Positions 8,203 to 26,077 of a DNA stretch of 26,077 nt are shown here, one piece after another. The DNA is from Chrysochromulina tobinii (Eukaryota > Haptophyta > Prymnesiales > Chrysochromulinaceae). The stretch covers positions 1 to 26,077 of the forward strand of contig JWZX01003004.1 in the NCBI GenBank assembly GCA_001275005.1, in the 5' to 3' direction. The position numbers were made by a program, and so were the translations under genes. Each line of letters opens with the position of its first letter. Position 1 is the stretch's first letter. A model generated the notes under the pieces. It was not told the origin of the DNA. It did no database searches and worked only from the letters and a program-made list of their open reading frames with translations.

Positions 8203-11200
8203 CTAGTGACCGACAGCTCCGCCGCCTTGCCCACTGGAGAGTGCGGCATGCTTGTGTACGCACGAGGGGCAGTACCAGCCGTCGCTGCCTCGTACCAGCC
8301 GGGTGCAACTACGAGCATGCAATAAGTGACGATCAGTGGCAATCAGTGGCAATCAGCGAGACGTTGGGTGAGCTACTCGAGATGCACCTGCGGTGATACG
8401 CGTCGGCGCACCCGTCGCACGCGTGCACAATCCCCCCACGCTTCAGGTTGCCGCATCGGGTGCACTTGTCTCGATTGCCGTCTTTGGTGTTCGCGGGGTC
8501 GAGCTCCTGCGTGCGCACTATGCCCATGAGGCGCGAGCCTGCATTGGCGAGGAGGAAGCACAGCTGATCTGGATAGATCGAACCGCGGTCCGGTCGTCCC
8601 TTTTGTCCCTTTACGGGCCGAACCTGAGCGTGCGAGCCAAAAAAGTGGCACGGCGTCTGACGAGTGCATTCCTTCTTATACGAGCCGTCTTGGTGCACGA
8701 AGGTTTCAATGGTGGCCACGTGATCTGACCACAGGTTAGTGGTCTTTTGGAAGGATTGGAGCCCGGAGGTGACGACCGTGCAGTATCTGATGAGGGGGCC
8801 ATCAGTGGCCATCAGAGAGGTCATCAGAGAGGTCATCAGAGAGGTCATCAGAGAGGTCATCAGAGTGTCATCAGAGAGGTCATCAGAGAGGTCATCAGAG
8901 TCAATTAGAACTTGGCCATCCCAGTCATCAGAAACAATGAGTGGTCATCAGAAGCCATTCGCATACGAGACTGAGAACTTGGCCATCCCAAGCCCGCCCT
9001 CGTGCTTCGGCCTTTCGAAGACGCTCACAGTGAGCGGATGGAACTGGCGCGTCGCCTTTGGATTCTCAGCGGAGCGCATGCACCTGATGAGGGAGGCCAT
9101 CAGTGTCAATCAGTGTCGATCAGAGTGACTATCAGTGGGTTCTCAGCAGAGCGCATGCACAGCTCGGTGGTACCGCACGCCTGCCAGTACAGATGACACG
9201 CAGTGAGGTAGTGGTAGCGCAGGTTGGTCGCAAATGCCTCTGCCGACGTGCCAAAGTACGCATTCTCACGCTTGCGCTGTGAGCACGAGAGCGACATGTT
9301 TGTGAACGTATGGCAGTCCAGCCCGTCGTGGATTGCATGCAGTGAGCCAACGTCGACCCTGCCCGAGAGCACCGCAATCGCAAAGTCGAGGAAGTCAAGG
9401 TGGATCAGGTTGCCCCTCTCGAGTCCGTTGAGTGTGCTCACTTGGCCGCCATCGTCGTACGTTGGCTTTGGCGCGAACGAGGGCTCCACGTACCTGATGC
9501 GGGAGGCCATCAGAAGGTCATCAGAAGGTCCTCAGAGGTCCTCAGAGATCCACAGAGGTCCTTAGATGGTCCTCAGATAGCCATCAGAGGCCAATCCAAG
9601 GCAATTGACGTTAACCGCATCCCAATCAAGGAATGTCATCAGAGGTCAATCCGAGGCAATTAACGCACTCCGCATCCCAATCAAGGAATGTCATCAGAGG
9701 TCAATCCGAGGCAATTCCGCATCCCAATCAAGGAATGTCATCAGAGGTCAATCCGAGGCAATTAACGTACTCCGCATCCCAATCAAGGAACCAAGCCGCG
9801 TTGCCCATGCTCCTCTGGTGCGCCGACCAGCCCGCACGCCCGCAGTAGAGCTCGAGCGTACGCGGACGTGTGCACGGCGTGCACAGGTCGCGCTGCTGGT
9901 TGCGTCGGACCTGCCGGCCCCTCGGCTGCTTCGCTGTGGTGGGCGCTGCCGCGCGCGCAGACGTGCCGTGGACGCCGCCACTGCTGCCGCCGCCGCGACT
10001 GTCGCCGCCACCGTTGCCGCCATCGTTGCCGTTATCGTTTCCGCGACTAATGCCGCCGCCGCCTCCATCGTTGCGGCCGCCATCACTATCGTCGCTGTCG
10101 TCGCCTTCGCCGCCGTCACCACCTTTGCCGCCGCCTTCGTCGTCGCCGTCGCCGCCGTCGCCTCCGCCTTCGCCGTCGCCTCCGCCTTCGCCTTCGCCGC
10201 CGTTTTCGCCGAAGCCACCGTCGCCGTTGGCGTCGGCATCTCCATCGTCAGCACCGGATGCATGCTGAGCAACGATGTTGATCGATCGGGCACGGCGCTC
10301 GACCTCCGCCCACGAGGTACAGCGCCAACCAGAGGGCTCACCTGCCATTTTTGGAGCACTCGCGCTGGGTGGCCTCTGATGATAATGTTTCGTAAAGTGG
10401 CGGCTGCATCTCTCACGTAGAATGTGGACGTCGGTGCTCCAATCCGGACGTCCTCGCGCCTTGTCCTCACCAAAATAGTACCTGAGGAGGTAGGCGATCA
10501 GAGAACAACAGAAACCATTAGAGGGGTCATCAGATGTCATCAGTGGATAGCACGTACGTGGGCAGCTCTGGCCTTGCCTCGGTCACAAAGAGGCAGCCGA
10601 GCAGCTCAAGCACCTGGCGTTGGAACGGCGCACTCTGCGCGTTCACCTGTACCGACACACGTTGAAACACGGGCGTCATCAGAGGTCATCATCAGAGGTC
10701 ATCATTGGCCATCAGACGCAATCAGACGTCATCAACCCACCTGCACCGACACGTCGTGCCACGGACGGCACACGCGCAGGGCGTCGCCGTTGAGGTCAAT
10801 GGCGAGGCCAGTGCGCACGCACGCCTCGCGATCGCTACCCCATGCAACGGTCGGGCACGCATGCAGCTGGTGCGCGTAGAGCACGTCCGTCTTGTCATCG
10901 AGGACATACCCGTCCCCGTCCTCGGCCACAGCCCACGCCGTAAGTGAGACAAGGACCTCTGTGGGCTGGTGGCCGCGATCTGTCCGGCAGCCGGCAGCCG
11001 TCGGGGCCTTGACCACAGGCTCGGTGAGCTGCTCATGAAATTCGTCGAAGCGCTTGAGCATGAACTGGGCGTCCTCCTCAATCCAAAGCGCCACGAGACG
11101 ACCCTTGAGCCCCCCGGCAGTGTGCTCGGGGAGCCTCAGCTGGTTCTGATCTGTGAAGTCGAGCTCGAGGGCCACGTCAGCCTCGGGTGGAGGGGCCGAC

Positions 11201-14200
11201 GCCACCAGCCGCCTCGCGGCTATCTTTGTCTCCTCTGTGGCGTTTTCGTCAGCCTCGACGAGGGCAAGAGCCACTGCCGCCACCCCGTGGCACAGGGAGC
11301 TGTACTCTGTGCGAGCCTGGTGGCCACACGCATGCAGCCTCAGAGCCGCGTGGGTGCCGAGGTGGCGCGGCGGGCGCACGCCACCAATCGAATCCGGCGC
11401 CACGAGCTCATGAGCGGGATGCTGCACGCGAGAGACGTCGGTACGACCGTCCGTCCGTCCATCCAACCAACGTAGCACTTTGGCACTCGCACCAAACGGC
11501 GCCTTCCTCGCCACCAGATCCACGTAAGATTGCAGCGCGTGGTCGATACCCTGACCGTCGAACTCGGGCAGCACGGCAACAAGCGGCACCTGAGGAGGGA
11601 GGCAGTCAGAGGTCATCGGAGGTCATCAGAAGGTCATCAGAGGTCATTCTAGAGTCTGGCAGTCGGGCGGCGAGTGGCACCTCTAGCACGAGCTCCTTCG
11701 AGCTTCCATCTTCTTCCAAGGCCGCGTGGAACGCGCGCACGACCGCGAGGCCGACGACTTCAATCTGCAGGCGTGCGAACACCACAAAGGTCAGCTGGTC
11801 GTCGTTGGCGTCTGCTGCCGGCCCGCCGCTCGCTGCGGATGCCGATGGCGCTCCCTGATGATCCCTGATGACGCTCCCTGATGATGACGATGCGCCTAAG
11901 CCGGAGCTGCCCGCTGCCCTGAACCACCACGCGTGTCTGAAGAGGTGCGCCTGATGAAATAGTCATCCAAAATGTCGTCAACATCCGCCTGGCCGAAGCA
12001 CCTGGCGAGGACGCCGTGCACGGCCAATGCCTGGTGGGCGAGCAGGTGCTCGGCGTACCTGTGATGAGGGCGGCCATCGGAGGTCATCAGAGGCCATCGG
12101 AGGCCATCGGTGGTAATCAGAGGTCATCAGAGGTCATCAGAAGTCATCAGAGGTCATCATATGTCATCAGATGAATTAAGATGCAATCAGCGTCAGAGGC
12201 CATCAGATCAGATTATATCCTTTATATCCGTCGGAGATATATCCACGCACCCAAAATCGAAGCCCAACGTGTATTCGTCGAGGGGCGGCTGGGCTGCCGC
12301 CGCACGCTGCCCCCGGCTGGGCAGCCGACGCGCGGGCAATGCAGGCCGCGCTGGCCTGGGTAGGCGCTTGCGAGGGGAGGCGGCGGGCACAAGACCCTCC
12401 TCCAGCCCGAGCTCCTTAAAGAGCGCCTTGTTACGCTCTATATTCCTCAACCTCAGCTGTTCTATCATAGGTAGCTCCTCGAGCGACGAGGTGCCCAAGG
12501 AGGCCGCGAGGTCAGTGCGAGGCTTCACCTGATGAGGGAGGCCATCAGAGGTCATCAGAAGCAATCAGAAGGGTCATCAGCGGGCATCAGTGGTCCGTGC
12601 GAGGCCTCACGTGCTCTCGTGGTACGTGGTGCACGTAGGATTCATCCGTGTACCGTACGTCCACCGTGCCGTCCGCGTGCGCCGCAGTGACAGTGCCTGG
12701 GAACCAGTCATGCAGCTCGCCGCTCGAGTACCGGTATGAAGGCGCTCTATCCCCTTGGTTGATCCACCATCGGCCACTCACCAGAGTGCCCACCCTGTAG
12801 CTCGGCACCGCCGACGACGTCTCGCCACGGGCATGGGTGGCGGCTGGCTGCGCAGTCGGATTGGCAGCCCGAGCAGACCCTGCAGCAGCAGCAGCAGTAG
12901 TAGCAGCAGTGGGTTGCTTGCGAGAGGCCTTGGCCGAGGGGGCCAGCCTGGCAGCCCGAGCAGCCCCAGCAGTAGCAGTCCCCCCAGCAGCACCCCCGGC
13001 AGCAGCCGCAGCCGCCATCCGTTTCTTGCCTGAGGCTTTGACGGAAAGGGCGGCCGCTGGTTTGGCACTCTGGAGCACTCTGTTGTGGAGCGGTTGGTCC
13101 TCGTCGTCCTCGTCACTTGAGGAGGACGTCGCGGAGGAGTAGGGGGCCGCTGCGCTGGCGCTGGCGCTGGCACTACCAGCGCGGACAGCATCGGGTGGTT
13201 TGGTGGGTGCGCCATCGAGGAGCCATGCTGTACACTTCTCGAGGCTCGGTCCACAGACCTCAACAGCCTTCATTACGTGCTGATGTGCAAAACCCATGCT
13301 GACCATCTCGCCAACCAAGCTCACGTTGTCACCGGTAGGCGCCCCTGGCGCGGGATCATTCGCATGGTCGAGCAGGTGCTGTATGGTCGCGTTTTGGTCG
13401 TCGCCGCACGCAGCGATCGCGATCCGAATGCGCTCGACCTGATTAGGGAGGGCACACTCAGCATGCAAAGAGGGAGGTCATCAGCATGCAATCAGGGGTG
13501 CGATCCGACGCGCTCTACCTCGAAACCCATCGCCACGAGTGTGACCTCCATCGATGCCGACGTGGCCGAGAGTGTTTCGTCGAAGCCTCCACTCTCTCCG
13601 CCTCCAGTGCCGCCACCGTCGCCCCCTCCCCCTCCCCCTCCCCCAGCGCCGCCACCGTCGCCCTCTCCCCGAGCGCGGTCATCGTCGCCCCCTCCTCCCC
13701 CTCCTCCACCCACGCCGCCACGTGTCACCTCCACCATGGTCACATCCATCGACTCGTCAAGACCAATCTCGGCCTCAATCTCGTCGTCGAGATCGATCAC
13801 GTGCTGCTCGGGTTCGCGCAGCTCGGCAGGCGGGCGTTGCTCGGAGGGATGAACCTCGGATGGCCGCCGTTGCTCGGTGGGAGGTCGTCGCTCGATCGCA
13901 ATCGAGCCAAGGCGTCGTCCCTCGGCGGCCGTTGGCCCAAAGGGACCTCCAGTGCCCACGCACGTGCCGACCTCGTGATGACCACTGATGACGAACTCGT
14001 CGCTTTCCGGCGCATGGGCGTCGTCGTGGGCGCCGCCGGCCTGCATGGGAGTCTGCTCGTGTGCGTCGGCAGCGTCGTCCTGAGCGCAACCATGGGCGTC
14101 GTACTGAGCGCCTTCAGCGTTGTCTTGAGCGTCATCCCACACCACATCGTCGCCGTCGTCGAAATCGGCTGCAAACTCTGCCACCGCCGCCCCCGCCGCC

Positions 14201-15033
14201 TCCGCCGCGTTGGCCGCCACCTCGGCCGCCACCTCGGCCGCCACCTCGGCCGCCACCTCAGCGGCCAACGCCGTCGCCACCTCTGCCATCAGCCGCCCCG
14301 CCACCAACCCCTCCGCCACCTGGGCCGCCGCCGCCACCGCCGCCACCGCCGCCGCCGTCACCGCCGCCACCGCCACTGCCTCGTCCGCTGCCTCGCGAGT
14401 GCCGCCGATTACAGTCGCGCCGCCGCTGGCCTCCGAGGGCCTCTGAGGACCTCTGAGGACCTCGGCGGTAGGCGACGGCGGCTTCTCATCGCACTGTTCG
14501 GCGCACTGCTCGGCGGGTTGCCCTGGCATCTGTGCTGCAGGTTGCCCTGGCTCGCGTGCCGCGGGCTCCTCCATCGGCGAGTGCTCAGGGGAGTACACTG
14601 GTGAGTACGCTGGCGAGTCTCGCTCGGAAGAGTCTCGCCGTCGATGTCGGCCTTGCGACCGTGATCGTGATCGCGACCGCGACCGTGACCGCGACCGCTG
14701 CTGATGGCGCCGGCCCGTTGCCATGTGGCCGTCACGGCCACGGCCTTTGCCATATCCGGCGTCTTCGCCACGGCCTTTGCCATACCCACCGCCTTTGCCA
14801 TACCCACCGCCTTTGCCATACCCACCGCCTTTGCCGTACCCGCCTTTGCCGTTGCTATGGTAGCCCCCGCCTTTGGCGTGGTGGCCACCTCCGTTGCCGT
14901 GGCCACCACCGCCTTTGCCATAACCGCCGTGACCGTAGCCGTCATCACGACCGCGCTTCCTTTCGCGCGAGCACAGGTCATCGAGGGTCATGTCGAGATT
15001 TGAACGCCGCCCATCGTCCGGACGATCGCCCAT
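8203..15033 (-). CDS. UBA-UBA-Tudor-like-C5 methyltransferase-like-PHD chromatin protein (12 exons)
   Basis: Exons: 15033-13519, 13438-12611, 12528-12251, 12058-11951, 11864-11681, 11589-10741, 10646-10558, 10481-9771, 9493-9161, 9083-8967, 8786-8388, 8308-8203, giving 1838 codons plus stop. The order is: GYGKGG repeats; an RS tract and YSP repeats (about residues 1-150); low-complexity Ala/Glu and Gly/Asp; UBA1 (about 495-530, completed only after splicing); UBA2 (about 545-585); a Tudor-like fold (about 715-780, WFPGTVTAAHADGTVDVRY); an unrecognised region; Gly/Asp linker; then a methyltransferase-like core with LELYCGRAGW (about 1493), FLDWDAE, GLDCHTF (Cys 1581), AENP (about 1637-1640) and QKTTNLW. 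The PHD finger ligands are C1779, C1782, C1794, C1797, H1802, C1805, C1817 and C1820. A role in reading and modifying chromatin is inferred. The junction near 11865-11950 is tentative. Confidence 0.8.
8309..8387 (-). other. Intron 11 of UBA/PHD gene (79 bp)
   Basis: GT-AG, phase 2. Splicing joins YHR to SCTRL and WYCPSC, which restores the last ligands of the PHD finger. Contains CTGATTGCC units near the 3' end. Confidence 0.85.
8787..8966 (-). other. Intron 10 of UBA/PHD gene (180 bp, CTGATGACC array)
   Basis: GT-AG, phase 2. The interior is a 12-bp array of CTCTGATGACCT type in sense orientation, and the 3' end is GGCCCCCTCATCAG. Splicing gives SVSYC, continuous with the methyltransferase-like core. 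Confidence 0.85.
9084..9160 (-). other. Intron 9 of UBA/PHD gene (77 bp)
   Basis: GT-AG, phase 2. The first 24 bases match the first 24 bases of the next exon at 22 positions, and both codon differences are synonymous. The 3' end is GGCCTCCCTCATCAG. Splicing joins TTEL to CMRSAENP. Confidence 0.9.
9494..9770 (-). other. Intron 8 of UBA/PHD gene (277 bp) with copies of the exon-intron junction
   Basis: GT-AG, phase 2. The plus strand at about 9600-9790 shows four imperfect copies of a block that includes the end of the upstream exon (CTTGATTGGGATGCGGA) and the start of the intron. A CTGAGGACC/CTGATGACC array and GGCCTCCCGCATCAG follow. Confidence 0.9.
10482..10557 (-). other. Intron 7 of UBA/PHD gene (76 bp)
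   Basis: GT-AG, phase 2; ends CGCCTACCTCCTCAG. Splicing joins ELPTY to YFGEDKARG. Confidence 0.8.
10647..10740 (-). other. Intron 6 of UBA/PHD gene (94 bp)
   Basis: GT-AG, phase 0. The upstream exon end GTGTCGGTGCAGGTG is repeated at the intron 3' end as GTGTCGGTACAGGTG, so here the duplication spans the splice junction. CTGATGACC units lie inside. Confidence 0.85.
11590..11680 (-). other. Intron 5 of UBA/PHD gene (91 bp)
   Basis: GT-AG, phase 0. The intron starts GTGCCACTCGCCGCCC and the next exon starts GTGCCGCTTGTTGCCG. It contains CTGATGACC units and ends TGCCTCCCTCCTCAG. Confidence 0.85.
11865..11950 (-). other. Intron 4 of UBA/PHD gene (86 bp, tentative GC-AG)
   Basis: A frame change and a TAG between the flanking coding blocks require an intron here. 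CAG/GCGCACC as donor and CATCAG/GGATC as acceptor keep frame (phase 2). A shorter GT-AG alternative, 11878-11930, also keeps frame. Confidence 0.45.
12059..12250 (-). other. Intron 3 of UBA/PHD gene (192 bp, CTGATGACC array)
   Basis: GT-AG, phase 2. The interior is a 10-bp sense array (GATGACCTCT and variants); the end is GGCCGCCCTCATCACAG. Confidence 0.85.
12529..12610 (-). other. Intron 2 of UBA/PHD gene (82 bp)
   Basis: GT-AG, phase 0. The intron starts GTGAGGCCTCGCACGGACC; the next exon starts GTGAAGCCTCGCACTGACC. The 3' end is CTGATGGCCTCCCTCATCAG. Confidence 0.9.
13439..13518 (-). other. Intron 1 of UBA/PHD gene (80 bp)
   Basis: GT-AG, phase 0. It splits UBA1: LVAMGFE joins VERIRIAIAACGDD. 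The intron starts GTAGAGCGCGTCGGATCGC; the next exon starts GTCGAGCGCATTCGGATCGC. It ends CCTCCCTAATCAG. Confidence 0.9.
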
Positions 15034-15491
15034 CGTTCCACTGGAGTCCCTCCGTGACGCGGGACGCGGGGCGCTGGACTCGTGTGAAGCAAAACAGAAC
15101 CCTTTTTCCCCACACGAAGAGTCAGGTCGTCGCCAGACCGGTTTGGTTTCTTTCTAACAAGTCGATTACCCCACATGCTACGGTGCCGCGTCACGGAAAA
15201 TTCATTTCCGAAAGATTAGCACGAGCCATGGACGAGCCGAGAGGTCCGACGCCCGACGCCCCTCTCCAGCCTCCAGGAATACAAGTACCAGTCTGTAGTA
15301 CAGTACAGTGGTACGAACCAATCTCGAAACCACACACACTTCGCCAGGTTATCATCTTCTTAGCGGCGCCCCGCTTGCTGGCCTCCTGACCAGGGTAAAG
15401 TAGTCATGTAAGCGCGCCCCACCGGGCACGCTCGAGGAGGGTCTCTTGTTTTCTTACAATAGTATTCACACCTGCCAATTTCACGAATGGA
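15034..15491. promoter_or_regulatory. Divergent promoter region between UBA/PHD gene and amine oxidase
   Basis: A 458-bp gap with AT-richer stretches than its surroundings. It contains the small palindrome CGGAAAATTCATTTCCG and, at 15455-15467, TACAATAGTATTC, a one-base variant of the motif at 4655 and 4759. That copy lies 25 bp before the amine oxidase start. No TATA box is obvious. Confidence 0.45.
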
Positions 15492-17231
15492 GTGACGAAT
15501 TCCGCCATGCGACCGCCCGGCCACCGTAGCGCTCTCCTCCGCGTCTTCCCGGCGTTCATCTTTGGATTGTGCGTCGTGGCACTGCTCTCGGGCGCCTGCC
15601 CGGCGGGGCGCTGTCTTTTCTCAAAGCGGGAGACCATCATCATCATCGGCGCCGGCGCGGCGGGCCTGGCCGCGGCGGCGGCGCTCAATACGGTGGCAAA
15701 CGTGCTCGTCCTCGAGGCGCAGGAGCGGCTCGGCGGCCGCGTGCACACGAATCGGAGCCTGGGAGTGCCCATTGAGCTGGGCGCGGTCTGGATCCACCGC
15801 GCTGAGGGTAACGTGGTCTCCGAGCTCGCACGCAGGTTTGGCTGCGCTTCGGTGGTGACCGAAAACAAGCAACTGCAACTCCACGACGAGGACGGCACGC
15901 CCATGCCCACGTCGCTCGTGAGCCAGGTGTACGCCGAGTTTATACGCACCATCATGCCCGAGTTTTTGCGCCGGCGTGCCCAGCTGCCGAGCGCGGCGCA
16001 CGACGTGGACATGGAAACTCTCATGCGTGCACTGCTGCCGTCCGCGGCCAGGCTGAGCGACGTGCGGCAGCAGTGCATCTTCGACTTTTTGCTCTTCCGC
16101 GACATCGTGCAGGACCACACGGCCGACCTGCGTCAGACGAGCGCGCGCGAGTATGACACCGACATGTACGGCGGCAAGGGCAAGGACGAAGTGCTGCCGG
16201 GCGGCTATGACTGCATCGTGCGTGGGCTGTCGCGCGGTGTGGAGGTGCGCACGGGGCGTGCGGGCGAGGTGGAGCGGCTGCGGTATGGCGAGGCGAGGGG
16301 CGTCGAGGCGCACCTGGCCGATGGCTCAGTCGTCCGCGCCGACCGCGCCATAGTCACATTGCCACTCGGAGTGCTCCGAGTGGGGATTGAAGCGCAGCAG
16401 GCGGCCACCGGCGCGGCCAACTCGTCGTCAACGTCGTCCCCGTCCTCGTCGTCGTCCTCGGCGTGGCCGCGCGGCGCTGTGCGTTTCGAGCCGCCCCTCC
16501 CTACGCGCTGGCTGCTGCCGCTGTCCAAGCTTGGGTGGGGCGAGGCTCTCAAAGTAGGGTTGCGCTTCCCGAACATCTTTTGGGCGCCGACGGCGCATTT
16601 CTTGGGAAAGGTGGGCGGCGGTTGCACCGCATACGGCAGCTCGCGACACATGGAGTTCGTCAACCTAGCCGTGTACACGGGCGCGCCCGTGCTGCTCATG
16701 GAGACGGAGAGGGCGTGGGCGCGAACGCTCGCCGCAATGCCGGACGAGCAACTCTTGGGCGTCGTGATGGGCGAGCTGCGGCGCATGTACCCTGGCGCTC
16801 CCGCGCCGACCGCCACCGTCGTCGCGCGGCTGGGTGAGAACGTGTTCCAGCGCGGCGCGTTCACGTTCATGCCGCCGCGCGAGACGAGTGAGCTGCAACG
16901 CCGCCTGTGGCAGCCGCTCGCGGCCGGGCGCGTGTTCCTTGCGGGTGAGCACACCTCGGTGCTGCATGCGGGCACGGTGCACGGCGCCGTCGTGAGCGGC
17001 CGGCAGGCGGCTGCGCAGGTGCGCGCGGCGATGCGTGGCGAGCCGTTGGTCGCGGCGGCCGAGAGGTTCCACGAGCAGTACCGCGAGCGGCTATACCGTG
17101 CCAACTATGGCGACGATCATGAGGACGAGCGTTGGTATTTTTGGGGCGGCCTCGGCGGAGGCGGGCAGGACGCGGCCAGCGAGGGCGACGATGACGATCC
17201 CGAGGAGGAGGTGTGGGACCGCAACCCGTAG
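15492..17231 (+). CDS. FAD-dependent amine oxidase (polyamine/monoamine oxidase family)
   Basis: An intronless frame of 579 residues; a second Met at 15507 is an equally possible start. A hydrophobic segment at about residues 12-36 fits a signal peptide or signal anchor, so the enzyme is probably luminal or extracellular. Family features in order: FAD-binding IIIGAGAAGLAAA (about 51-63), EAQERLGGRVHTNR (75-88), PIELGAVWIH (93-102), RAIVTLPLGVL, GWGEALKVGL (Lys at the usual flavin-site position), and near the C-terminus FLAGEHTSVLHAGTVHGA. Such enzymes oxidise amines with O2, releasing aldehyde and H2O2. A Ser-rich loop after the LPLGVL strand and an acidic C-terminal tail are additions to the fold. 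The exact amine substrate is not evident. Confidence 0.93.
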   Translation: MTNSAMRPPGHRSALLRVFPAFIFGLCVVALLSGACPAGRCLFSKRETIIIIGAGAAGLAAAAALNTVANVLVLEAQERLGGRVHTNRSLGVPIELGAVWIHRAEGNVVSELARRFGCASVVTENKQLQLHDEDGTPMPTSLVSQVYAEFIRTIMPEFLRRRAQLPSAAHDVDMETLMRALLPSAARLSDVRQQCIFDFLLFRDIVQDHTADLRQTSAREYDTDMYGGKGKDEVLPGGYDCIVRGLSRGVEVRTGRAGEVERLRYGEARGVEAHLADGSVVRADRAIVTLPLGVLRVGIEAQQAATGAANSSSTSSPSSSSSSAWPRGAVRFEPPLPTRWLLPLSKLGWGEALKVGLRFPNIFWAPTAHFLGKVGGGCTAYGSSRHMEFVNLAVYTGAPVLLMETERAWARTLAAMPDEQLLGVVMGELRRMYPGAPAPTATVVARLGENVFQRGAFTFMPPRETSELQRRLWQPLAAGRVFLAGEHTSVLHAGTVHGAVVSGRQAAAQVRAAMRGEPLVAAAERFHEQYRERLYRANYGDDHEDERWYFWGGLGGGGQDAASEGDDDDPEEEVWDRNP

Positions 17232-17656
17232 GTTGCTCGCTACACAATATTAGGTACCCTCCACGCTCACTACCGTACGAAAACCAAGAAGTGCATGCTC
17301 CGGGTCGGGTTATTCGCTCCGACGCCATGTCCGACGCACCGCACCGACGACGAACCGCGCGGGCCGCGGGGGCGGGGGCGCGCGCGCCCGCCCGGCCTGT
17401 TCCGGGCCGGGGCCCGGGGGCGAGAATAGGCCGCATTCCTCTATAATCTATAAGGTTGCGATAACGCGCTTTGGTGAGCGCGCGGTGCCGCACGCCAGGG
17501 GCCGCAAGCAGGCGCCATGGCCACACACAGGGGACACACACAACACACGACGGTCTACTGTAGCTAAGTCCTGGACAAGGACATAGTCTCGTCTCTGTTC
17601 ATTCATGCTGGTTCGAATGGAGCATACTGGTCATCATTGTTCTGTGTTCGAATCCT
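17232..17656. other. Convergent intergenic region with GC-extreme block
   Basis: Lies between the stops of the amine oxidase (plus) and the SnoaL-like gene (minus). Positions about 17350-17425 are almost pure G/C with foldback arms (CCCGGCC and GGCCGGG around TGTTCCG). AT-rich TCTATAATCTATAAGG follows at about 17441. No gene seen. Confidence 0.6.
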
Positions 17657-18241
17657 TCAGAAGAAGATGTTCTCATACATCTGCAGGGCGCCCATCGCCT
17701 CTGGCATGAGAGAAGAATGATGCTCCATAATCTGCCATTTCGTCCCATTCCAGGCGTAGACAAACGTGAAGCGAGCCTGCACCGAGGCACCCGTGGTGGA
17801 GAAGGTGAAGGTGTAAATGCCGGAGTGGATTGCGAGGTCGCCAAAGGTGCGAATGTTCGACTGGTCGATCACGCCGCTCGGGCCTTTTGCCAGAAAGTGC
17901 TCAAAGTAATCCTCCCTCTCCTCGGTGGTGTGGCGAACCGTGTTGGACAAAGTCGGCAGCAGGATGGCGTTGGGCGCATAGAGTGCCGAAACTTCTTTGG
18001 GCTCTTGAGTTTGGAGTGCCTTGTTCCATACATCGAAGAGGCCGGCGATTTCGTCCTTGAGTGCCGTCTTCGTCGGCGTGACGTCTTCTTCGGTGGTCTG
18101 CTCCGTGACTTCGGTCTTGGGTACTTCGGTGGTCTTGGGTACTTTAGACCCGCGCAGGTCATCCGGCAGCGCGGGGTCGAGAGTGGATGCCGTCATGGCC
18201 ACGAGTGGCGCGACGAGCAGCAGGCTTATGAGGATGCGCAT
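17657..18241 (-). CDS. Secreted SnoaL/CaMKII-association-domain-like protein
   Basis: The start at 18241 (194 residues) is preferred because MRILISLLLVAPLVAM then begins a standard signal peptide. An upstream in-frame Met at 18271 would add ten residues. After a Thr/Lys-rich linker (TEVPKTEV type) comes one NTF2-like domain: IAGLFDVWNKALQTQEP, VSALYAPNAILLPT, REDYFEHFLAKGP, then beta strands ending WQIMEHHSSLMPE. The HHSS-x-MP ending is characteristic of the CaMKII association-domain/SgcJ-EcaC family, which form oligomers or bind small ligands. No kinase domain is present. It is divergent from the helicase gene. The family call is good; function is unknown. Confidence 0.88.
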   Translation of the reverse strand: MRILISLLLVAPLVAMTASTLDPALPDDLRGSKVPKTTEVPKTEVTEQTTEEDVTPTKTALKDEIAGLFDVWNKALQTQEPKEVSALYAPNAILLPTLSNTVRHTTEEREDYFEHFLAKGPSGVIDQSNIRTFGDLAIHSGIYTFTFSTTGASVQARFTFVYAWNGTKWQIMEHHSSLMPEAMGALQMYENIFF

Positions 18242-18339
18242 GATTGGATGTATCCTGCGCAAATGTAACACCAGTTAGCTCGCAGCGTATCTGTTGGCTC
18301 GTGCGATCAACACAAAGGCCGACATACCGCTCGACGGAG

Positions 18340-18349
18340 CCAAATTTGG
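18340..18349. promoter_or_regulatory. CArG-like box 1 (CCAAATTTGG)
   Basis: Exact, fully palindromic CC(A/T)6GG in a GC-rich genome; see the region entry at 18242-18557. Confidence 0.45.
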
Positions 18350-18372
18350 ATGGAAACCGAGTCGGCTACAGT

Positions 18373-18382
18373 CCATATTTGG
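18373..18382. promoter_or_regulatory. CArG-like box 2 (CCATATTTGG)
   Basis: Exact CC(A/T)6GG, identical to a well-known SRF-type site, 33 bp from box 1. Confidence 0.45.
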
Positions 18383-18557
18383 TACTACACGTCTCTTGCA
18401 TGTCAAAAAGAAGGACACACGAACAGCATGGTTGAGTTTGGTTTTGGGTATTGAGAAACGTAGTTCAGTATGAATACAGTACGCATTCAACTCTTTTTCT
18501 GAGTCTCGTCACACACGTGGCAGTCCCTCCACGAGGGCCGAGCAGACGAGCCGCGGC

Positions 18558-21500
18558 ATGGGCCGCGAGAAGCAAGAGCAGCTTTCGACCAAGGAGGCAA
18601 AGAAGAAGGCGGTGGAGGAGGCCGCCAAGCCTCCGCCGCCCGAAGAGCCGAAGCGCAAGCTCAACAAGATCAGGACCAACGTGCACGTCGCCAAGGTGGA
18701 CCGCGTTGTCACCTTGGCCGCGGTGCCGGCGGCAGGCAAGGATGGTGGCGGAGGCAAGGGTGGCGCCTCCACGACCGCCGCCGCGGCTGGGGACTGGGTA
18801 TGCCCGGCTTGCACCGCCGAATGCTTCGCCTCGCGCACCGAGTGCTTCCGCTGCAAGACGCCGCGGCCCAAGGATGATGGCATCACGGTCATGCCAGCAT
18901 CCAAGGCGCCAGTGGCATTGGCCGCCGCCAAGGCGGCAGCAGCCGGCAGCAGCGGCGTCGGCGTCGGCGTCGGTGGCGTCGGTGGCGTCGGTGGCGGCGG
19001 TGGCGGCGCACCGGGCACCTCGTCGGGCACGTCGTCAGAGGCGGCCGAGGTGACCATCATCCTCAAGGAGTGGCAGCGGCTGCCGCGCCAGCTGCTCCAG
19101 CAGCACACGGATAAGGCCAAGGCGCCCAAGCCCGACTTCCAGCTGCACCGTGTACGCGGCGAGCTGCGCGGGCGCGTCAAGCTCTGCCTGCCTAAGGAAC
19201 TCGCCGCCCCCGAGACGACCTTCGACTGCCCGCTCGCCGCCCTCTCCAGCCAAGATGCGTACCAGAAGGCCGCGCTCTATGCGCTCTACCAACTTGGACC
19301 GACGATTGCGCACCACCGCGTGCTGCCCGATCCCTACCGCGAGATCTGGGTGGGCTGGCAGACTGAGCCTCCTCCGCCGCCGCCAGGCGCGCCAGGCAGC
19401 GGAGTGGGCGGCGGAGGTGGCGGCGGCGGCGGCGGCGGCGGAGGCGGCGGAGGCGGCGGGCGGCGCGGCGGCGAGGGCGACGAGCGTGCCGAGGACTGGG
19501 TGTGCCCAGGCTGCACGGCGAGCGTCTTCGGCTCCAAGGACGCCTGCTTCCGCTGCCAGACACCGCGCCCCTCGGGGTACGGCTCAAAAGACAAAGCTCT
19601 CTCGCTGACCATCTCTGCTGAGGGGCGTGAGGCGGCCCTGCAAGCGCTCGCCATGGCGGTGGGCGCTGCGGCCTCCTCCGCGGCCGGCACGGAGACCTCC
19701 GCCACCGCTGTGGCCGCCGATGCCAAGCTGGTGAACGAGCTGCGTGCGCTCGGCTTCGCGGCAGACGCAGCGGACGCGGCGGCGCGGCACGTGCGCGCAA
19801 CCTCTGGTACCGAAGCGGATGCGGGCGGCGGCGGAGGCGCTGGTGGCGGAGGCAGCGGCGGCGCTGGCTCGCGCACGAAAAAAGACCGCGCGATCGATTG
19901 GCTGTGCCTCATGCTGCCTGAGCAGGTGGGAGACGCGCTGCTCGCGACTCTGAGTGTCCTCTGATTGCCGTCTGATTGCGTCCCTCATTGCATGCAGGAG
20001 CTACCGCTCGCCTTCCAAGTGAAGCAGCGTGTGCAGATTGTCAAGGCCGCCGACCGTACGCCCAAGCCGCCGCCGCCGCCGCCGCCGCCGCCGGTGCCGA
20101 CAGCACCAGGAAAGGCCGCCGCGGACGCGGCCGAGGTGGTGCCGACCCAATTAACGGCGCAATTAACGGCCGAGGTGGTGCCGACCCCTTTGCAGAGCGC
20201 GCCGTCGGCAGCGCCCAAGGCTCTGGCAGGTGCGAGTGCGGCGCAGCGGGCGCTCACGGCGTGTGGTTTCAGCCGAGCGGATGTGGACGCGGCTCTCATG
20301 CTGGCTCGAGGCGATGAGTTGGGTGCGCGGATGCTGCTTCTGTCGCTGCTGGCACGCCAAGCTCGGCGGACGCTCGCACCCTCTCTGGTGCCCTTGGGCG
20401 GCGGTGCGAGCGTCGTCGTGGGCGGCGGTGCGGACGAGGACGAGGGCGACGAAGACGAGGACGAGCACGAGGATGTTCACGACGTCGCGTCGGCCATGGG
20501 CGAGGAGGAGCTGCGAGCGGTGGCCGAAGAAGAGAAGGAGGTGCTCCGGGCGATTTATGGGGAGGCATTCCGCGAAGAGGAGGCGCCTGTGGCCGACGGC
20601 ACGCTGGTGCGAATGATGCATGTGCATCTCGAGAGCTTGCCCATCGCCGGCACGCTGACACTGCACATCACCGATGGAGCGGCGTGGCCTGATTCCCACA
20701 GCGCCGCAGAGGGCGGCGCGAGTTGTCCACAGGACGGGACGGCGACGAGCGCGACGAGGGGCGCGCACTACCCGCAGCGGGCGGCGCTGCCCTTGTTTGT
20801 GCCCTCGGAGCGCGGGGCCTTGCCGCCGCAGGCGTGCCTCGCAATCACTTACGCTCTCGCATGCAAGGCGCGCAAGCTCGCGCGGACCGCTGCGCCGGCC
20901 ATGTACGAGCTGGCCACGTGGCTTGAGGAGGCTGCGCTGGCTGAGGTTGCCGTGGCCGCTCGAGCTGGCCACGTGGCGCCTCCGCCCGCGCTGCTCGCGT
21001 CGTCAGCGCTCGAGGCAGCGCCTGCGGCGGGAGACGGCGGTGTGAAGCGACCGTGTGAAGACGGCGGTGAAGCGACCGGCGAGGCCGAGGCCGCCGTGGA
21101 GGACGTGAGCGACCGTGTGAGTGAGGGCGGCGTGAGCGTGAGCGACTTGTCCGAAGCTACGACGGTGCTTGCCGCCGTCGGTCGAGGTGCTGGCACACAA
21201 GGCGGTCGCAACAGCGCCAAGGAGGGGCGCGCCGGGGGCGCGAGCGGCGAGCGGCGCGCTCGCTTCGGCCGTGAGCCTCAGCCGATAGACCCGACGAGTG
21301 AGGCATGCAAGCGGGCGAATGCCTCGCTTCTTTCGGAGCAGCAGCGGCTGGACAGTAGTCCCGACGAGGCACGCCGCAGGCTGCCCGCGTACGGCGCGCG
21401 CGCTGAGCTCCTCGAAGCACTGCGCAAGTCGCGAGTCGTGGTCGTCTCTGGAGAGACTGGCTGCGGCAAGTCGACGCAGGTGCCGCAGTATCTGCTCGAG

Positions 21501-23692
21501 GACATGTGCGCGGCGGGGCGGGGCGGCGAGTGCTCGATCGTCGTGACGCAGCCCCGTCGCATCGCCGCCATTGCGCTGGCGGAGCGTGTGGCGAGTGAAC
21601 GTGGCGGCGGCAAGGCGGGGGGCGTGGTGGGCTATGCCGTTCGCCTCGAGTCCAAGGTGACGATGGACGTGACGAGGCTGCTCTTCTGTACCACCGGCGT
21701 GCTCTTGCAGCGGCTGCGCACCGACCCGACGCTGCGCGAGCTCTCGCACGTGGTGATCGACGAAGTGCACGAGCGGTCGCTCGATTCCGACTTTCTGCTC
21801 ATCGTGCTGCGCGATGCCCTCGCTGCCAATCCCAACCTTCGCGTCGTGCTCATGTCGGCCACTCTCAACGCCGCCGGCTTCGCCGCCTACTTTGGCGGTG
21901 CCGCCATGCTCCACATCCCGGGTCGAACGTTCCCCATCGACGACTACTTTCTCGAAGATGCGATCGAAGCGACGGGCTACGTCGCGCGCGGCAAGCTGCT
22001 CCTGCGGGGTGAGGAGGCGGAGGAGGAGCTCGCCCCCCTCGCCGAGCAGCTGAGCACCGCCGCCACCGCCGCTGCCGCCGCCGACGCCGCAACGGTCGAA
22101 GCCGCCGCGGACGTCTCTGTGGCCGACGTGGCCTCGGGCGGTGCCTATTCCGACCGGACGAAGAAGGCGCTGCAGACACTACCCGCCGGCCAGGTACCCT
22201 CGGCGCTGCTGATGACCGCAGATGACCGCAGATGACCGCAGATGACCGCTGATGACCGCTGATGACCGCTGATGACCGCTGATGACCGCTGATGACCGCT
22301 GATGACCGCTGATGACCGCAGATGACCGCTGATGACCGCTGATGACCGCTGATGACCGCAGATGACCGCTGATGACCGCTGATGACCGCTGATGACCACT
22401 GATTGCCGCTGATCGCCAGGTACCCTCGGAGCTCGTCGCGGCGCTCCTCTCGAAGGTCGATGATGACGCGACGGAGGAGGAGCGCACCCTGGCCGCGAGC
22501 GCCAAGGGTGGTGGTGGTGGTGGCGGTGGCGGTGGTGGTGGTGGCGTGGGCGGCTTTGGGCGCGGCGCGGTACTGATCTTCCTTCCAGGTGTCCCCGAGA
22601 TACGCCGGCTCCAGCAAGACCTTGCACGCAGCCCGAACGCCACACGCTGGCTGCTGCTGCCGCTGCACGGCGAGCTCCCCGCGCAGGAGCAGCGCAAAGT
22701 CTTTCAACGGCCGCCTCCCTCGCAACGCAAGGTCATTCTGGCGACCAACGTGGCGGAGACCTCGCTGACCATCGACGACGTCACCGTGGTCATCGACACA
22801 GGCCGTGTCAAGCAGGCGAGCTACGATGCGCTCCACTCGGCGGCTGAGTGCCACTGCGTGCATGCTGAGTGCCACTGAGTGCCACTGAGTGCATGCTGAG
22901 TGCCACTGAGTGCCACTGAGTGCCACTGAGTGCCACTGAGTGCCACTGAGTGCCACTGAGTGCCACTGAGTGCCACTGAGTGCCACTGAGTGCCACTGAG
23001 TGCCACTGAGTGCCACTGATTGCCTCCCTCATCAGGCGAGCTACGATGTGCTCAACTCGGCGGCCACGCTCGAGGAGACCTGGGCACCCCGAGCCTCGCG
23101 CCGTCAGCGGCGCGGGCGCGCGGGACGCACGCGCCACGGCCAGTACTGGGCCCTCTACTCGCGTGCGCAAGAGCGACGGCTGCCGGAGCAGGCGCCGCCT
23201 GAGATCCTTCGTGTGCCCCTCGAGAACCTGTATTTGCAGGTGAGGGGGCCCTTGGGCTGTGACTGGACGTGACTTGACGCGACTTGACGTGCCTTGACGT
23301 GACTTGACGTGACTTGACGTGACTTGACGCGACTTGACGTGCCTTGACGTGCCTGTCCTTCCTACAGGTGATGGCCCTTGGGCTGGGCAATGGCGACGCG
23401 CGTGCCTTTCTGCGTCGCGCGCTCGACCCGCCCACCGATACGGCGCTCGAACACGCCGCGGCCGCGCTGCACCGTGTGGGCGCCCTCAAAGGAGGAGCCG
23501 CACCCCCGCCCGTGGGCGAGTCGGCTCCACAGGCCCTCACAGCGCCCATTCGCGCCAGAGTGGACGCCTGGACGAACGCCAAGAAGGTCAAGGACTACAA
23601 GAAGGCCGATGCGATCCGAGACGAGCTTCGCAAGGCGGCCATCGATGTCGAGCGCGCCGCCGCGCAGATGCGGCAGGAGGCGGGGGGCACCA

Positions 23693-23738
<46 letters not shown>

Positions 23739-24862
23739 GACCCTCGCCGCAGGCTCCGCTACGCGAAGAATTGACGCCGTTGGGCTCGCACCTGGCGCGT
23801 ATGCCGCTCGAGCCGCGTGTGGGCAAGATCCTCATCTATGGCGCCCTGCTCGGTTGCATCGACCCGGCGCTCACGATTGCGGCCGCCATGAGCCTCTCGC
23901 GCTCGCCATTCCTCACGCCCCACGAGCGACGACAGGAGGCCGCCACCGCGCGCGCCGACTTTGTCCGCGATCGGTCGGACCACCTCGCCTTGCTCCGCGC
24001 TTACGAAGCCTGGGAGCTCGAGTACGAGCTCTAATTGCCTCTGATGGCCTCTGATGGCCTCTGATGGCCTCTGATGGCCTCTGATGGCCTCTGATGTCCT
24101 CTGATGGCCTCCTTCATTAGGTACGATGTCGTTGGATCGCATGCGGCACGACGCTTTGCCGAGGCGCACTTCTTATCTCCGAACGGGATGGAAGAGCTCC
24201 ACGGCCTCCGACGCACACTCGGCGCACAATTGGCCGACATTGGGTTTGCCCGCTCGAGCGCACAGGCAGCCGAGCGTGCCGAAGCCAATGAGTCCGCCAC
24301 TCAGCCCACCACTCAGCCGGCGAGCGAGTCGCCCAACCTCGTGCGCGCGCTCGTGTGTGCCGGCCTCTACCCCAATTTGGTACGTGTGCGCATGCCCGAT
24401 ACCAAGTACGTGGCTACCGCGCAGGGCGCCATCGAGGCTGCCAATGACGACGCGCGCGCCATTCGCTTCTACACGCTCCCCAATTCGCGCGTCTTCTTGC
24501 ACCCGAGCTGCGCCCTCTTCACCGAGACAGCCTTCAACGCCCGCTGGCTCGTCTACACGTCGAAGCAGCAGGTGGCCGCTGAGAAGGTCTACGTGCGCGA
24601 CGTGAGTGCGGTCTCGCCGCTCGCCCTGCTCCTCTTCGGCGGAGAGGTGCAGGTGAGTCATAGCAGCGGCACCGTCACCATCGACGGCCAAATCTCCTTC
24701 GAGGCACCCGGGCGTGTCGCGGTGCTCGTGCGGGAGCTGCGCGCAGAGCTCGATAAGCTTCTCGCCGAGAAGCTCGCGGACCCGTCCCTCGAGATCGGGA
24801 CGCACCCTGTGGTCAAGGCCATCGTCAACCTCATCAACACGGAGCGTGCGGGCTTCTCATGA
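18558..24862 (+). CDS. DExH-box RNA helicase, DHX57/DHX29-like, with two RanBP2 zinc fingers (7 exons)
   Basis: Exons: 18558-19925, 19998-22193, 22420-22815, 23036-23239, 23368-23679, 23753-24021, 24121-24862, giving 1828 codons plus stop. Domains: RanBP2 fingers at about 78-104 (CPAC..CFRC) and 311-337 (CPGC..CFRC); a dsRBD-like segment (about 190-250); UBA (about 391-456, ending DWLCLMLPEQ/ELPLAF across intron 1); a second UBA-like helix set (about 538-575); RWD (about 620-780); helicase motifs I GETGCGKST (941), II DEVH (1044), III SAT, V NVAETSLT (about 1297) and VI QRRGRAGR (1344); winged helix/HA2 (ALGLG, LTPLGSHLA); and a C-terminal OB region. This is the architecture of DHX57-type helicases, known to bind and unwind structured RNA in an ATP-dependent way. 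The Gly tracts and a CysRS-like insert (about 1450-1480) are unusual. The junction at 23680-23752 is inferred. Confidence 0.9.
19926..19997 (+). other. Helicase intron 1 (72 bp)
   Basis: GT-AG, phase 0. Removing it joins DWLCLMLPEQ to ELPLAF, matching the conserved family sequence. Contains CTGATTGCC-like units and TCCCTCATTGCATGCAG. Confidence 0.9.
22194..22419 (+). other. Helicase intron 2 (226 bp, 10-bp array)
   Basis: GT-AG, phase 0. Nineteen units of GATGACCGCT or close variants fill 22211-22400. CCAGGTACCCTCGG is present at both intron ends, so the exact cut is fixed only by the GT-AG rule. Confidence 0.93.
22816..23035 (+). other. Helicase intron 3 (220 bp, GC-AG, 10-bp array)
   Basis: Phase 0, donor CAG/GCGAGC. 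The intron's first 29 bases match the next exon's first 29 bases at all but two or three sites, and no GT alternative exists within the duplicated block. The interior is about fifteen GAGTGCCACT units; the end is TGCCTCCCTCATCAG. Confidence 0.9.
23240..23367 (+). other. Helicase intron 4 (128 bp, GACTTGACGT array)
   Basis: GT-AG, phase 0. The interior is a 10-bp array of GACTTGACGT type. The intron starts GTGAGGGGGCCCTTGGGCTG; the next exon starts GTGATGGCCCTTGGGCTG. It ends CTTCCTACAG. Confidence 0.92.
23680..23752 (+). other. Helicase intron 5 (73 bp, inferred GC-AG, GGC tract)
   Basis: The reading frame must shift by one between RDELRKAAIDVERAA and LTPLGSHLA. A GC-AG intron with donor GAG/GCGGGG and acceptor GCCGCAG/GCTCC restores frame, is phase 0 and has the usual minimum length. 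A simple indel in the (GGC)n tract is the alternative. Confidence 0.5.
24022..24120 (+). other. Helicase intron 6 (99 bp, GATGGCCTCT array)
   Basis: GT-AG, phase 2. Six to seven units of CTGATGGCCT; ends GGCCTCCTTCATTAG. The intron starts GTACGAGCTC; the next exon starts GTACGATGTC. Confidence 0.9.
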
Positions 24863-25456: not shown

Positions 25457-26077
25457 TTAGAACGGAACGAGGACCGTAAGGTCCAGTTTGACATCTGCGA
25501 AAGGCAGGCCGCGGTCGTCTGCGGCTTCGACGAAGCGTACGATGGCGGCGTTTGGGCGCTGGAGCGTCGTGATGAGTGCGGTCCATCCCAGCCCCCCATG
25601 CTCTGTGCATGGGTAGGTGGGCCAGCACGCGGCGGGCACGCGCACGCGGCGTCCGACTGCGTTGGTAGCGGTCAGCGGTGACGAGTCAGGCGGTGCAGGC
25701 GGTGGCGCTGCTGTGTCGCCCGCGTCGCGGTCGGCGTTGTCAAGCACGTGACGCGCCCGCGCTGGGATGTTTCCGCCAAAGGCGTGTAGCAAGGCGATGT
25801 TGCCTTCGCTGTTGCACACCTTGGGCACGGTGGAAGCGCGCACTGCGTCGACGACCGCCTTTTCGGCCTTGTCGACCCAATTGATGTGAAGCGACGTGCC
25901 GTGAAGCGCATAGATCTTTAGCGACTCCGGGTTGGCCCATCGGCAGATCATTTGGATGACGTCGTCGGCACAGCCGGCGGCTTTCAGCGCGGTGGCGAGC
26001 CCACTGCGCAACGAGTGCCATGAGTAGCATGAGGCGACCTTATCGCCGTACAGGCGCACGAGCGCAGCATGCAACAT
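25457..26077 (-). CDS. Tyrosine recombinase, C-terminal part (partial at right edge)
   Basis: The frame enters from the right edge, so the Met at 26077 may be internal. In the visible 206 residues, SWHSLRSGLATALKAAG supplies the His-x-x-Arg of the catalytic box. ICRWANPESLKIYALHG supplies the Trp/His-position residue and the nucleophilic Tyr (visible residue 56). These are hallmarks of phage-integrase-fold recombinases as found in eukaryotic Crypton- and DIRS-like elements. After a Pro-rich linker, a C-terminal module (VGRRVRVPAACWP, EHGGLGWTALI, LPFADVKLDLTVLVPF) resembles an SH3/Tudor-like barrel. This module is unusual for the family and could target the enzyme to chromatin. Host-domesticated versus active element cannot be told from this fragment. 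Confidence 0.85.
   Translation of the reverse strand: MLHAALVRLYGDKVASCYSWHSLRSGLATALKAAGCADDVIQMICRWANPESLKIYALHGTSLHINWVDKAEKAVVDAVRASTVPKVCNSEGNIALLHAFGGNIPARARHVLDNADRDAGDTAAPPPAPPDSSPLTATNAVGRRVRVPAACWPTYPCTEHGGLGWTALITTLQRPNAAIVRFVEAADDRGLPFADVKLDLTVLVPF

Follow-up and report, generated by a model that had tools for sequence, protein, structure and literature searches.

Introners are reportedly known from Micromonas and Aureococcus through the work of Huff et al. in 2016. Previously characterised introners bear duplications of 3-9 bp, families with an element-borne acceptor and a duplication-supplied donor have been described, most leave mRNA length unchanged, and terminal inverted repeats occur in 72 of 177 introner families (PMC9860276); the large introner survey of Gozashti et al. 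(2022) removed low-complexity families (PMC9860276). Other work describes new introns of Daphnia pulex, attributed to the repair of staggered double-strand breaks, with 4-12 bp repeats and common internal repeats (PMC4202315), introns that arise when AGGT segments undergo tandem genomic duplication (PMC3443670; PMC4974935), and Amoebophrya introners with direct repeats of 3-5 nt, inverted repeats of 8-20 nt and many non-canonical sites (PMC7789003). A 2025 survey of 213 introns gives direct repeats of 4-30 bp near the borders, with a mean of 11.4 (PMC11782384), and for the stwintrons of Hypoxylaceae, end joining is invoked for a deletion (PMC8469720). Here, we analysed a contig of the haptophyte Chrysochromulina tobinii (JWZX01003004.1; the window, 26,077 bases in its entirety) together with the 53.15 Mb of the genome, in 2253 contigs. 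In the window, introns of two genes end in variants of one block: a DHX36-like DEAH helicase gene on the plus strand and, on the minus strand, a gene that matches UBA and, at scores under the Pfam cut-off, Agenet and PHD-like domains. Many genes of this genome appear to have gained introns through a short splicing cassette that was copied into an exon, with the next bases of that exon duplicated before it.

The preliminary description of the window had proposed that introns on both strands share a near-identical 3' block, and this was borne out, since the 20-mer block has eight matches with at most three mismatches, where 100 shuffles gave 0.01 on average. These matches end at 12529, 12061, 11590, 10482, 9494 and 9084 on the minus strand, and at 23035 and 24120 on the plus strand, the one at 12061 belonging to an intron that ends at 12059. 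Six of the eight positions first listed were recovered in this way, and the remaining two (8787 and 13439) are insertion/deletion variants of the block recognised by reading; the matches at 10482 and 12061 are additional. The genome-wide search that the description had suggested found 206 exact copies of the 20-mer and none of its reversed control, and CCTCCCTCATCAGG, the last 13 bases of the block plus G, has 1484 exact copies, again with none for the reversed control. The neighbouring open reading frames (ORFs) at 5361-7745 and 15492-17231, described as intronless, are open along their whole length. As for the idea that a common introner has spread, the part that stands is the presence of one sequence in many introns; a classical introner, whose sequence is fixed and whose target duplication is short, is not supported, as only the 3' cassette is common and the 5' part copies the intron's own downstream exon, over 20-42 nt in the identical cases. 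This duplication of the downstream exon start at the 5' end of many block introns was absent from the earlier reading, as was the fact that most block introns are tandem arrays of approximately 10 bases.

Many block introns thus have the architecture X-E-X, in which X copies the start of the downstream exon and E is the cassette. E, mostly 30-60 nt long, usually consists of repeats of approximately 10 bases followed by CTGAT, pyrimidines and AG; we take CTGAT (CTCAC in a second family, described below) to be a branch-point-like motif. X mostly begins with GT or GC and can thus provide the donor, the acceptor being part of E. Duplications were at first sought de novo with AG and GT as fixed anchors, which gave 215 real cases against 152 for the mirror and 212-238 for other anchors; this search was swamped by tandem repeats, and nulls made of mispaired flanks were therefore used instead. 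The counts include neither 443 unfiltered direct repeats nor an initial set of 121 anchored cases among 413 candidate acceptors. Arrays were sampled from the window, from 20 unselected 10-kb stretches (contigs taken at regular number steps) and from the block loci; among 76 repeat arrays, the flanks align at a score of at least 12 in 22, with 1.65 expected from mispaired flanks. When the exon-start copy was anchored exactly at AG, in 118 block acceptors from 66 loci, an upstream copy with a score of at least 10 was found for 60 acceptors, compared with 0.5% of 1385 mispaired pairs, and a score of at least 15 was reached by 43 acceptors and by none of the 1385 pairs. Acceptors at loci chosen by the block reach a score of at least 10 in 54 of 96 cases and at least 14 in 42, and those in the window in three and two of seven cases, respectively.

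Forty-five events score at least 14 and are called strong here. Their X measures 17-42 nt (median 27), the two copies are identical in 24 of them over lengths of 20-42 nt, and X starts with GT in 35, with GC in six and otherwise in four; the base before the first X is G in 39/45, and the dinucleotide is AG in 26/45. In the 30 events shorter than 110 nt, X plus E averages 77.9 nt (sd 8.5), a longer X goes with a shorter E (r = -0.59), and 28-81 nt of each, acceptor included, is cassette. Among weaker events, five have identical X of 10-12 nt (loci L022, L053, L057, L062 and L066), within the reach of the anchored test, which cannot detect duplications below 10 nt. These, with 18 nt in L072, imply that 20 nt is no sharp lower limit. 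All 45 strong events end in CATCAG or CATTAG, an end for which the block search itself selects. On the question of inverted repeats, CTGAT lies near the cassette start in 24/45, possibly as a by-product of the array unit, and no terminal inverted repeats were seen by eye in the second cassette.

Five of the 12 modelled introns of the window have at least 16 of their first 24 bases in common with the exon start (22, 22, 18, 16 and 16), while the best match of the exon start elsewhere in these introns is 10-12. The features of the window are as follows:

22816 to 23035, plus strand: helicase intron 2, GC-AG, 220 nt; X copy at 22816-22844, CTGAGTGCCA array, block ending in CATCAG; 22 of the first 24 nt as in the following exon, anchored score 23 over a length of 29, frame restored.
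23036 to 23064, plus strand: exonic (3') copy of the 29-nt duplication of helicase intron 2, with two mismatches.
22194 to 22419, plus strand: helicase intron 1, GT-AG, 226 nt; X copy GTACCCTCGGCGCT followed by some 20 units of GCTGATGACC (array by Tandem Repeats Finder, TRF); 16/24 first nt as in the exon start, flank score 17.
23240 to 23367, plus strand: helicase intron 3, GT-AG, 128 nt; array of GTGACTTGAC, with CCTTCCTACAG as acceptor; flanks duplicated as CAGGTGA..GGCCCTTGGGCT if a 2-nt gap is allowed, score 14.5 (ungapped 10/24).
24022 to 24120, plus strand: helicase intron 4, GT-AG, 99 nt; CTCTGATGGC array, block ending in CATTAG, no clear duplication; score 6, and 10/24 nt, below the best match elsewhere in the intron (15).
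9084 to 9160, minus strand: intron of the UBA/Agenet/PHD-like gene, GT-AG, 77 nt; X of 25 nt (9160-9136), cassette with the exact block; 22/24 nt, score 19.
12529 to 12610, minus strand: intron, GT-AG, 82 nt; X of 19 nt (12610-12592), cassette with the exact block; 18/24 nt, score 13.
11590 to 11680, minus strand: intron, GT-AG, 91 nt; block variant with three mismatches, diverged X; 16/24 nt against 12 at best elsewhere, flank score 12, anchored score just 5.
13439 to 13518, minus strand: intron, GT-AG, 80 nt; block altered by an indel, X diverged and recognised by eye if a 1-nt gap is allowed; 11/24 nt ungapped, outside the 118 tested acceptors.
9494 to 9770, minus strand: intron, 277 nt; arrays with units of 47/55 nt and 10 nt, one mismatch in the block; score 6, no clear duplication.
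10482 to 10557, minus strand: intron, 76 nt; block with three mismatches; score 4, no clear duplication.
10647 to 10740, minus strand: array intron, 94 nt; the upstream exon end (..TCGGTGCAG) seems duplicated at the intron 3' end; score 13.5.
12059 to 12250, minus strand: intron, 192 nt; CATCAGAGGT array, block variant ending in CATCACAG; no clear duplication.
8787 to 8960 (start approximate), minus strand: array intron with a 12-nt unit, acceptor CCCCCTCATCAG.

The intron at 10647-10740 is a mirror case, in which the end of the upstream exon, not the start of the downstream one, is apparently duplicated.

Compared with the systems outlined above, these introns resemble introners in the near-identical sequence found at many genic intron sites (206, 1484 and, for the second cassette, 509 exact copies) and in presence/absence differences between relatives, here at the protein level. 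They differ from them in that identical duplications reach 20-42 nt (24/45), rather than 3-9 bp, and in that two unrelated cassettes leave one scar. As in the Daphnia type, terminal bases of the exon are repeated at the opposite end of the intron (60/118 against 0.5% of 1385), and the five weaker events with identical repeats of 10-12 nt fall here; in contrast to that type, X measures 17-42 nt in the strong events, and the insert is a recurrent splicing cassette. Tandem genomic duplication likewise duplicates a donor-bearing exon start, with the sequence in between spliced out, but there the whole intron is duplicated exon and both splice sites come from AGGT copies, whereas here a foreign cassette provides the branch point and the acceptor. 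Amoebophrya is likewise a protist in which repeated introns are numerous and bordered by direct repeats; the differences are the mostly GT/GC-AG ends and the long direct repeats of the present introns. The repeat lengths of the 2025 survey overlap the lower part of our X range (PMC11782384). Among the top open-licence matches listed, none describes, in its title or the opening of its abstract, a cassette accompanied by a 20-42 bp duplication of the exon start. Since low-complexity families were filtered from the large introner survey, the array cassettes described here would probably have been filtered as well, and such cassettes could be common and unseen.

If X and E are removed together, the original coding sequence would be restored, with splicing itself deduced from the sequence. 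Using a codon model trained on window ORFs, 43 events were tested (two of the 45 were dropped for short flanks) and divided into those in which the first X is not preceded by TCAG or TTAG (class A, 29 events) and those in which an older CATCAG or similar end precedes X (class B, 14 events). Removal of X plus E keeps the frame in 23/29 class-A events, where chance predicts one third, and in 11/11 of those with both flanks coding-like. The sense orientation claimed for all introns holds for most of those in which it can be tested, the codon score being higher on the sense strand in 24 of the 29 class-A events; in class B, the sense strand scores higher in 11/14. Furthermore, identity reaches only 0-3 nt past the splice junction in 28/28 class-A events, so that the boundary of the insertion is the acceptor.

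The second, unrelated cassette is non-repetitive (GCATGCAAGTGCTCACCACGGCGCC...TCCCCACAG), and its exact 21-mer occurs 509 times genome-wide, with none for the control. Acceptors of other types in the studied loci have a strong duplication in five of 21 cases, compared with 0/397 for the null, and four of these five (L021, L027, L051 and L072, not L011) carry this cassette. A search for its core with up to five mismatches gave 30 matches, some of them by chance, with 17 testable acceptors, of which eight are duplicated at a score of at least 10. Its duplications are the following:

L027: X identical over 31/31 nt.
L062: X identical over 27/27 nt.
L072: X identical over 18/18 nt.
L021: X of 30 nt.
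L051: X of 35 nt.
L065: X of 16 nt.
L074: two more duplications, in tandem units.

The same duplication around a second cassette implies that the scar is not tied to one cassette sequence, and the identical behaviour of two unrelated cassettes points to a common insertion process rather than to one element family. These results also bear on an alternative in which nothing has spread, the block being a rigid branch-point/acceptor consensus and the arrays ordinary microsatellite growth. The arrays are indeed of low complexity, and CTGAT, with pyrimidines and CAG after it, could plausibly act as a branch-acceptor signal. However, the 206 exact 20-mers and 509 exact 21-mers exceed a splice consensus in length and exactness, and a consensus leaves the duplication of the exon start unexplained. 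Unless the duplication test is an artefact, its outcome refutes this alternative, which we hold to be very improbable.

The junctions carry a further signature. At the 5' junction, X ends agree with the bases found just before cassette starts elsewhere over a mean of 1.51 nt, compared with 0.48 nt when the X ends are permuted (39/45 events testable; the largest of 500 permutations gave 0.75), and the cassette starts exactly at TGAN in 12/45 events, with approximately 3.1 expected. Together, these observations point to junctions chosen by short matching bases. We regard it as probable, if only just, that an acceptor cassette was copied into the exon and the next 20-42 bases were re-synthesised during DNA synthesis or break repair. 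The most likely form of such copying is microhomology-guided template switching as follows, which by itself has, in our estimate, slightly less than an even chance of being correct. While an exon is being synthesised or repaired, a new strand would leave its template where X ends, pair by a few matching bases with the cassette of an existing intron, and copy that cassette (E) up to AG or just past it; it would then re-anneal a short way upstream and copy X a second time. The 5' copy of X would serve as donor and E as acceptor, excision of X plus E would return the original coding sequence, and the units might afterwards multiply in tandem (X-E-X-E-X). Selection would presumably retain those X that start with G|GT or G|GC, because only these would splice out exactly. 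Both the direction of the change, a gain, and template switching are what we infer from these patterns. Junction microhomology and copied inserts are also features of template switching and of templated insertion by polymerase theta (PMC8421209, PMC5068794), processes that none of the open-licence matches listed names as a genome-wide source of introns.

An alternative to copying by DNA synthesis is a non-autonomous mobile introner, whose cassettes would be inserted by retrotransposon machinery or by an unidentified transposase, X being a target-site duplication; in the retrotransposon variant, the excised intron RNA, which ends exactly at AG, would undergo target-primed reverse transcription. 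Long duplications of variable length, a constant 3' end and variable 5' ends resemble target-primed insertion, and a likeness to target-primed retrotransposition is thus present in the variable length of X and in the constant 3' end, the latter partly imposed by the search that yielded CATCAG or CATTAG in every strong event. In addition, reverse transcriptase domains (RVT_1) have 26 matches in the genome, 22 of them over the cut-off. On the other hand, the same scar is left by two unrelated cassettes, tandem X-E units are unexpected under simple retrotransposition, and the 5' junctions share more matching bases than chance predicts, although a certain amount of junction microhomology can also occur in target-primed insertions. 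We therefore consider a mobile introner unlikely, though still a serious candidate.

Copies of the cassettes can be followed within and between loci. Within one locus, cassettes resemble each other on average more closely than shuffled ones do (14.06 for 84 pairs, compared with 11.62, sd 0.67), and at the 3' junction, pairs in L030 and L052 have 6 and 7 nt in common. The exact 28-nt core of the L030 cassette has six copies in the genome (four in contig C172, one in C412 and one in C2154), and the whole 39-nt cassette is identical in C412, so that copies occur within one gene as well as on different contigs. L030 comprises two adjacent introns of one gene, each with three X and two identical 39-nt cassettes, and L041 has four X with three cassettes between them. 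More than one block is present in 33 of the 118 clusters. Such tandem X-E units after a CATCAG-like end (14 class-B events of 43; 33/118 multi-block clusters) are also what turnover in old introns would produce, if replication slippage re-duplicated the exon start together with the array and X was refreshed without any gain; the presence of helicase intron 1 in all five close strain clusters seen agrees with this as well. In contrast, in 29 of 43 events the first X follows non-cassette sequence, with the frame joining in 23 of these 29, relatives are uninterrupted at the window sites of introns 1 and 2, and the relative P0127 carries an intron at a site that is uninterrupted in the window. Turnover as the general explanation is accordingly improbable.

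The relatives in question are helicases with approximately 60% identity. At the protein level, P0126, P0128 and P0138 read through both window sites, 1 and 2, and P0127 reads through site 1; the first three might be sequences of RNA origin. P0127, which runs into an intron and should therefore derive from DNA, is interrupted at SLT|IDD, where the window helicase has no intron. Beyond an array with different units, the sequence there can be decoded as encoding these 12 residues (36 nt) once more in a shifted frame, a re-encoding that arises in 0/20,000 random strings, and this implies an X of at least 36 nt flanking a different cassette in another species. Five metagenomic ORF clusters terminate inside the X copy of intron 1 plus a varying array; since each of the five close strain clusters seen has the intron, its origin is not very recent.

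Several observations weigh against the gain of introns by cassette copying and have to be considered together. Seven of the 12 window introns match the exon start at only 6-11 of 24 positions, without a clear ungapped duplication, a gapped one being nonetheless present in the introns at 23240 (by flank score) and 13518 (by reading). In the unselected 10-kb stretches, three of 15 acceptors score at least 10 and one scores at least 14; as 96 of the 118 acceptors come from exact-block loci, young copies are over-represented. Four of the 45 strong events start with neither GT nor GC and are unexplained, and the frame is kept in only 7/14 class-B events. The homology expected at the 3' junction, where exon starts of source and target should match, is weak (2.64 nt, n = 11, against 1.83), and the likeness of cassettes within a locus is modest, the maximum of 2000 shuffles (14.24) exceeding the observed value. 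The 5' extensions of two cassettes match their own locus only, so that no source intron is proven, and the presence of RVT_1 domains leaves an RNA route open. The presence/absence comparison suggested in the preliminary description gave a difference between relatives at the protein level; between strains, the search for an empty site with the joined coiled-coil protein gave no match at E <= 1e-20.

With regard to the host genes, the helicase exons were joined as 19965-22193, 22420-22815, 23036-23239 and 23368 onward (introns of 226, 220 and 128 nt), and the joined frame stays open across the first three of the introns. The last exon of the model contains stops, and the coding frame seems, by reading, to change near 23720; a GCG run at 23693-23738, at this apparent change, reflects an assembly error or else a GC-AG intron. 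The alignment of the joined protein to DHX36 spans introns 2 and 3, and intron 1 sits between two DHX36-aligned stretches, with its support coming from the relatives. The model of the minus-strand gene is open through its first three introns, after which a stop follows, and the best protein match of the neighbouring amine oxidase has 98% identity.

Two other origins of the block were considered and rejected. A viral or prokaryotic origin was discarded, as CTGATKRCCTCCCTCATCAGG has no match in viral_contigs or genome_contigs; for a C/D small nucleolar RNA (snoRNA), suggested by the resemblance of TGATGA and CTGA to C/D boxes, Rfam was empty in the window at gathering thresholds. Other arrays were noted in the studied loci: dense arrays of approximately 10 nt at 1500-9956 of L015 (contig C650), with units such as CCTCTAATTG and a switch of orientation at about 6440, and arrays of a CTGTCGAG-type 10-11-nt unit at 3769-4664 of L026, which are unlike the CTGAT arrays. 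Elsewhere in the window, a 168-bp tandem repeat (1100-1735; 3.8 copies, 98% matches) lies inside the long minus-strand ORF 2-4279, for which Pfam gave no match at E <= 0.01. The terminal minus-strand ORF (25457-26077) has a weak phage-integrase/tyrosine-recombinase match (E 2.3e-4, below the Pfam cut-off) and no match in the phage-collection search; it could be a Crypton-like remnant.

The origin of introns is a long-standing question, and most introns are too old to keep a scar. A broader proposition, which we put forward tentatively and hold to be possible if on balance doubtful, is that DNA synthesis of the host alone multiplies introns, without a transposase or a retroelement, independently of the cassette sequence and clade-wide, with each birth leaving a datable scar. 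Identical copies of X would then mark recent births and eroded copies older ones. Consequently, the scarred copies would allow the rate of gain, the choice of targets, the source intron and the decay of the scar to be measured in one genome.

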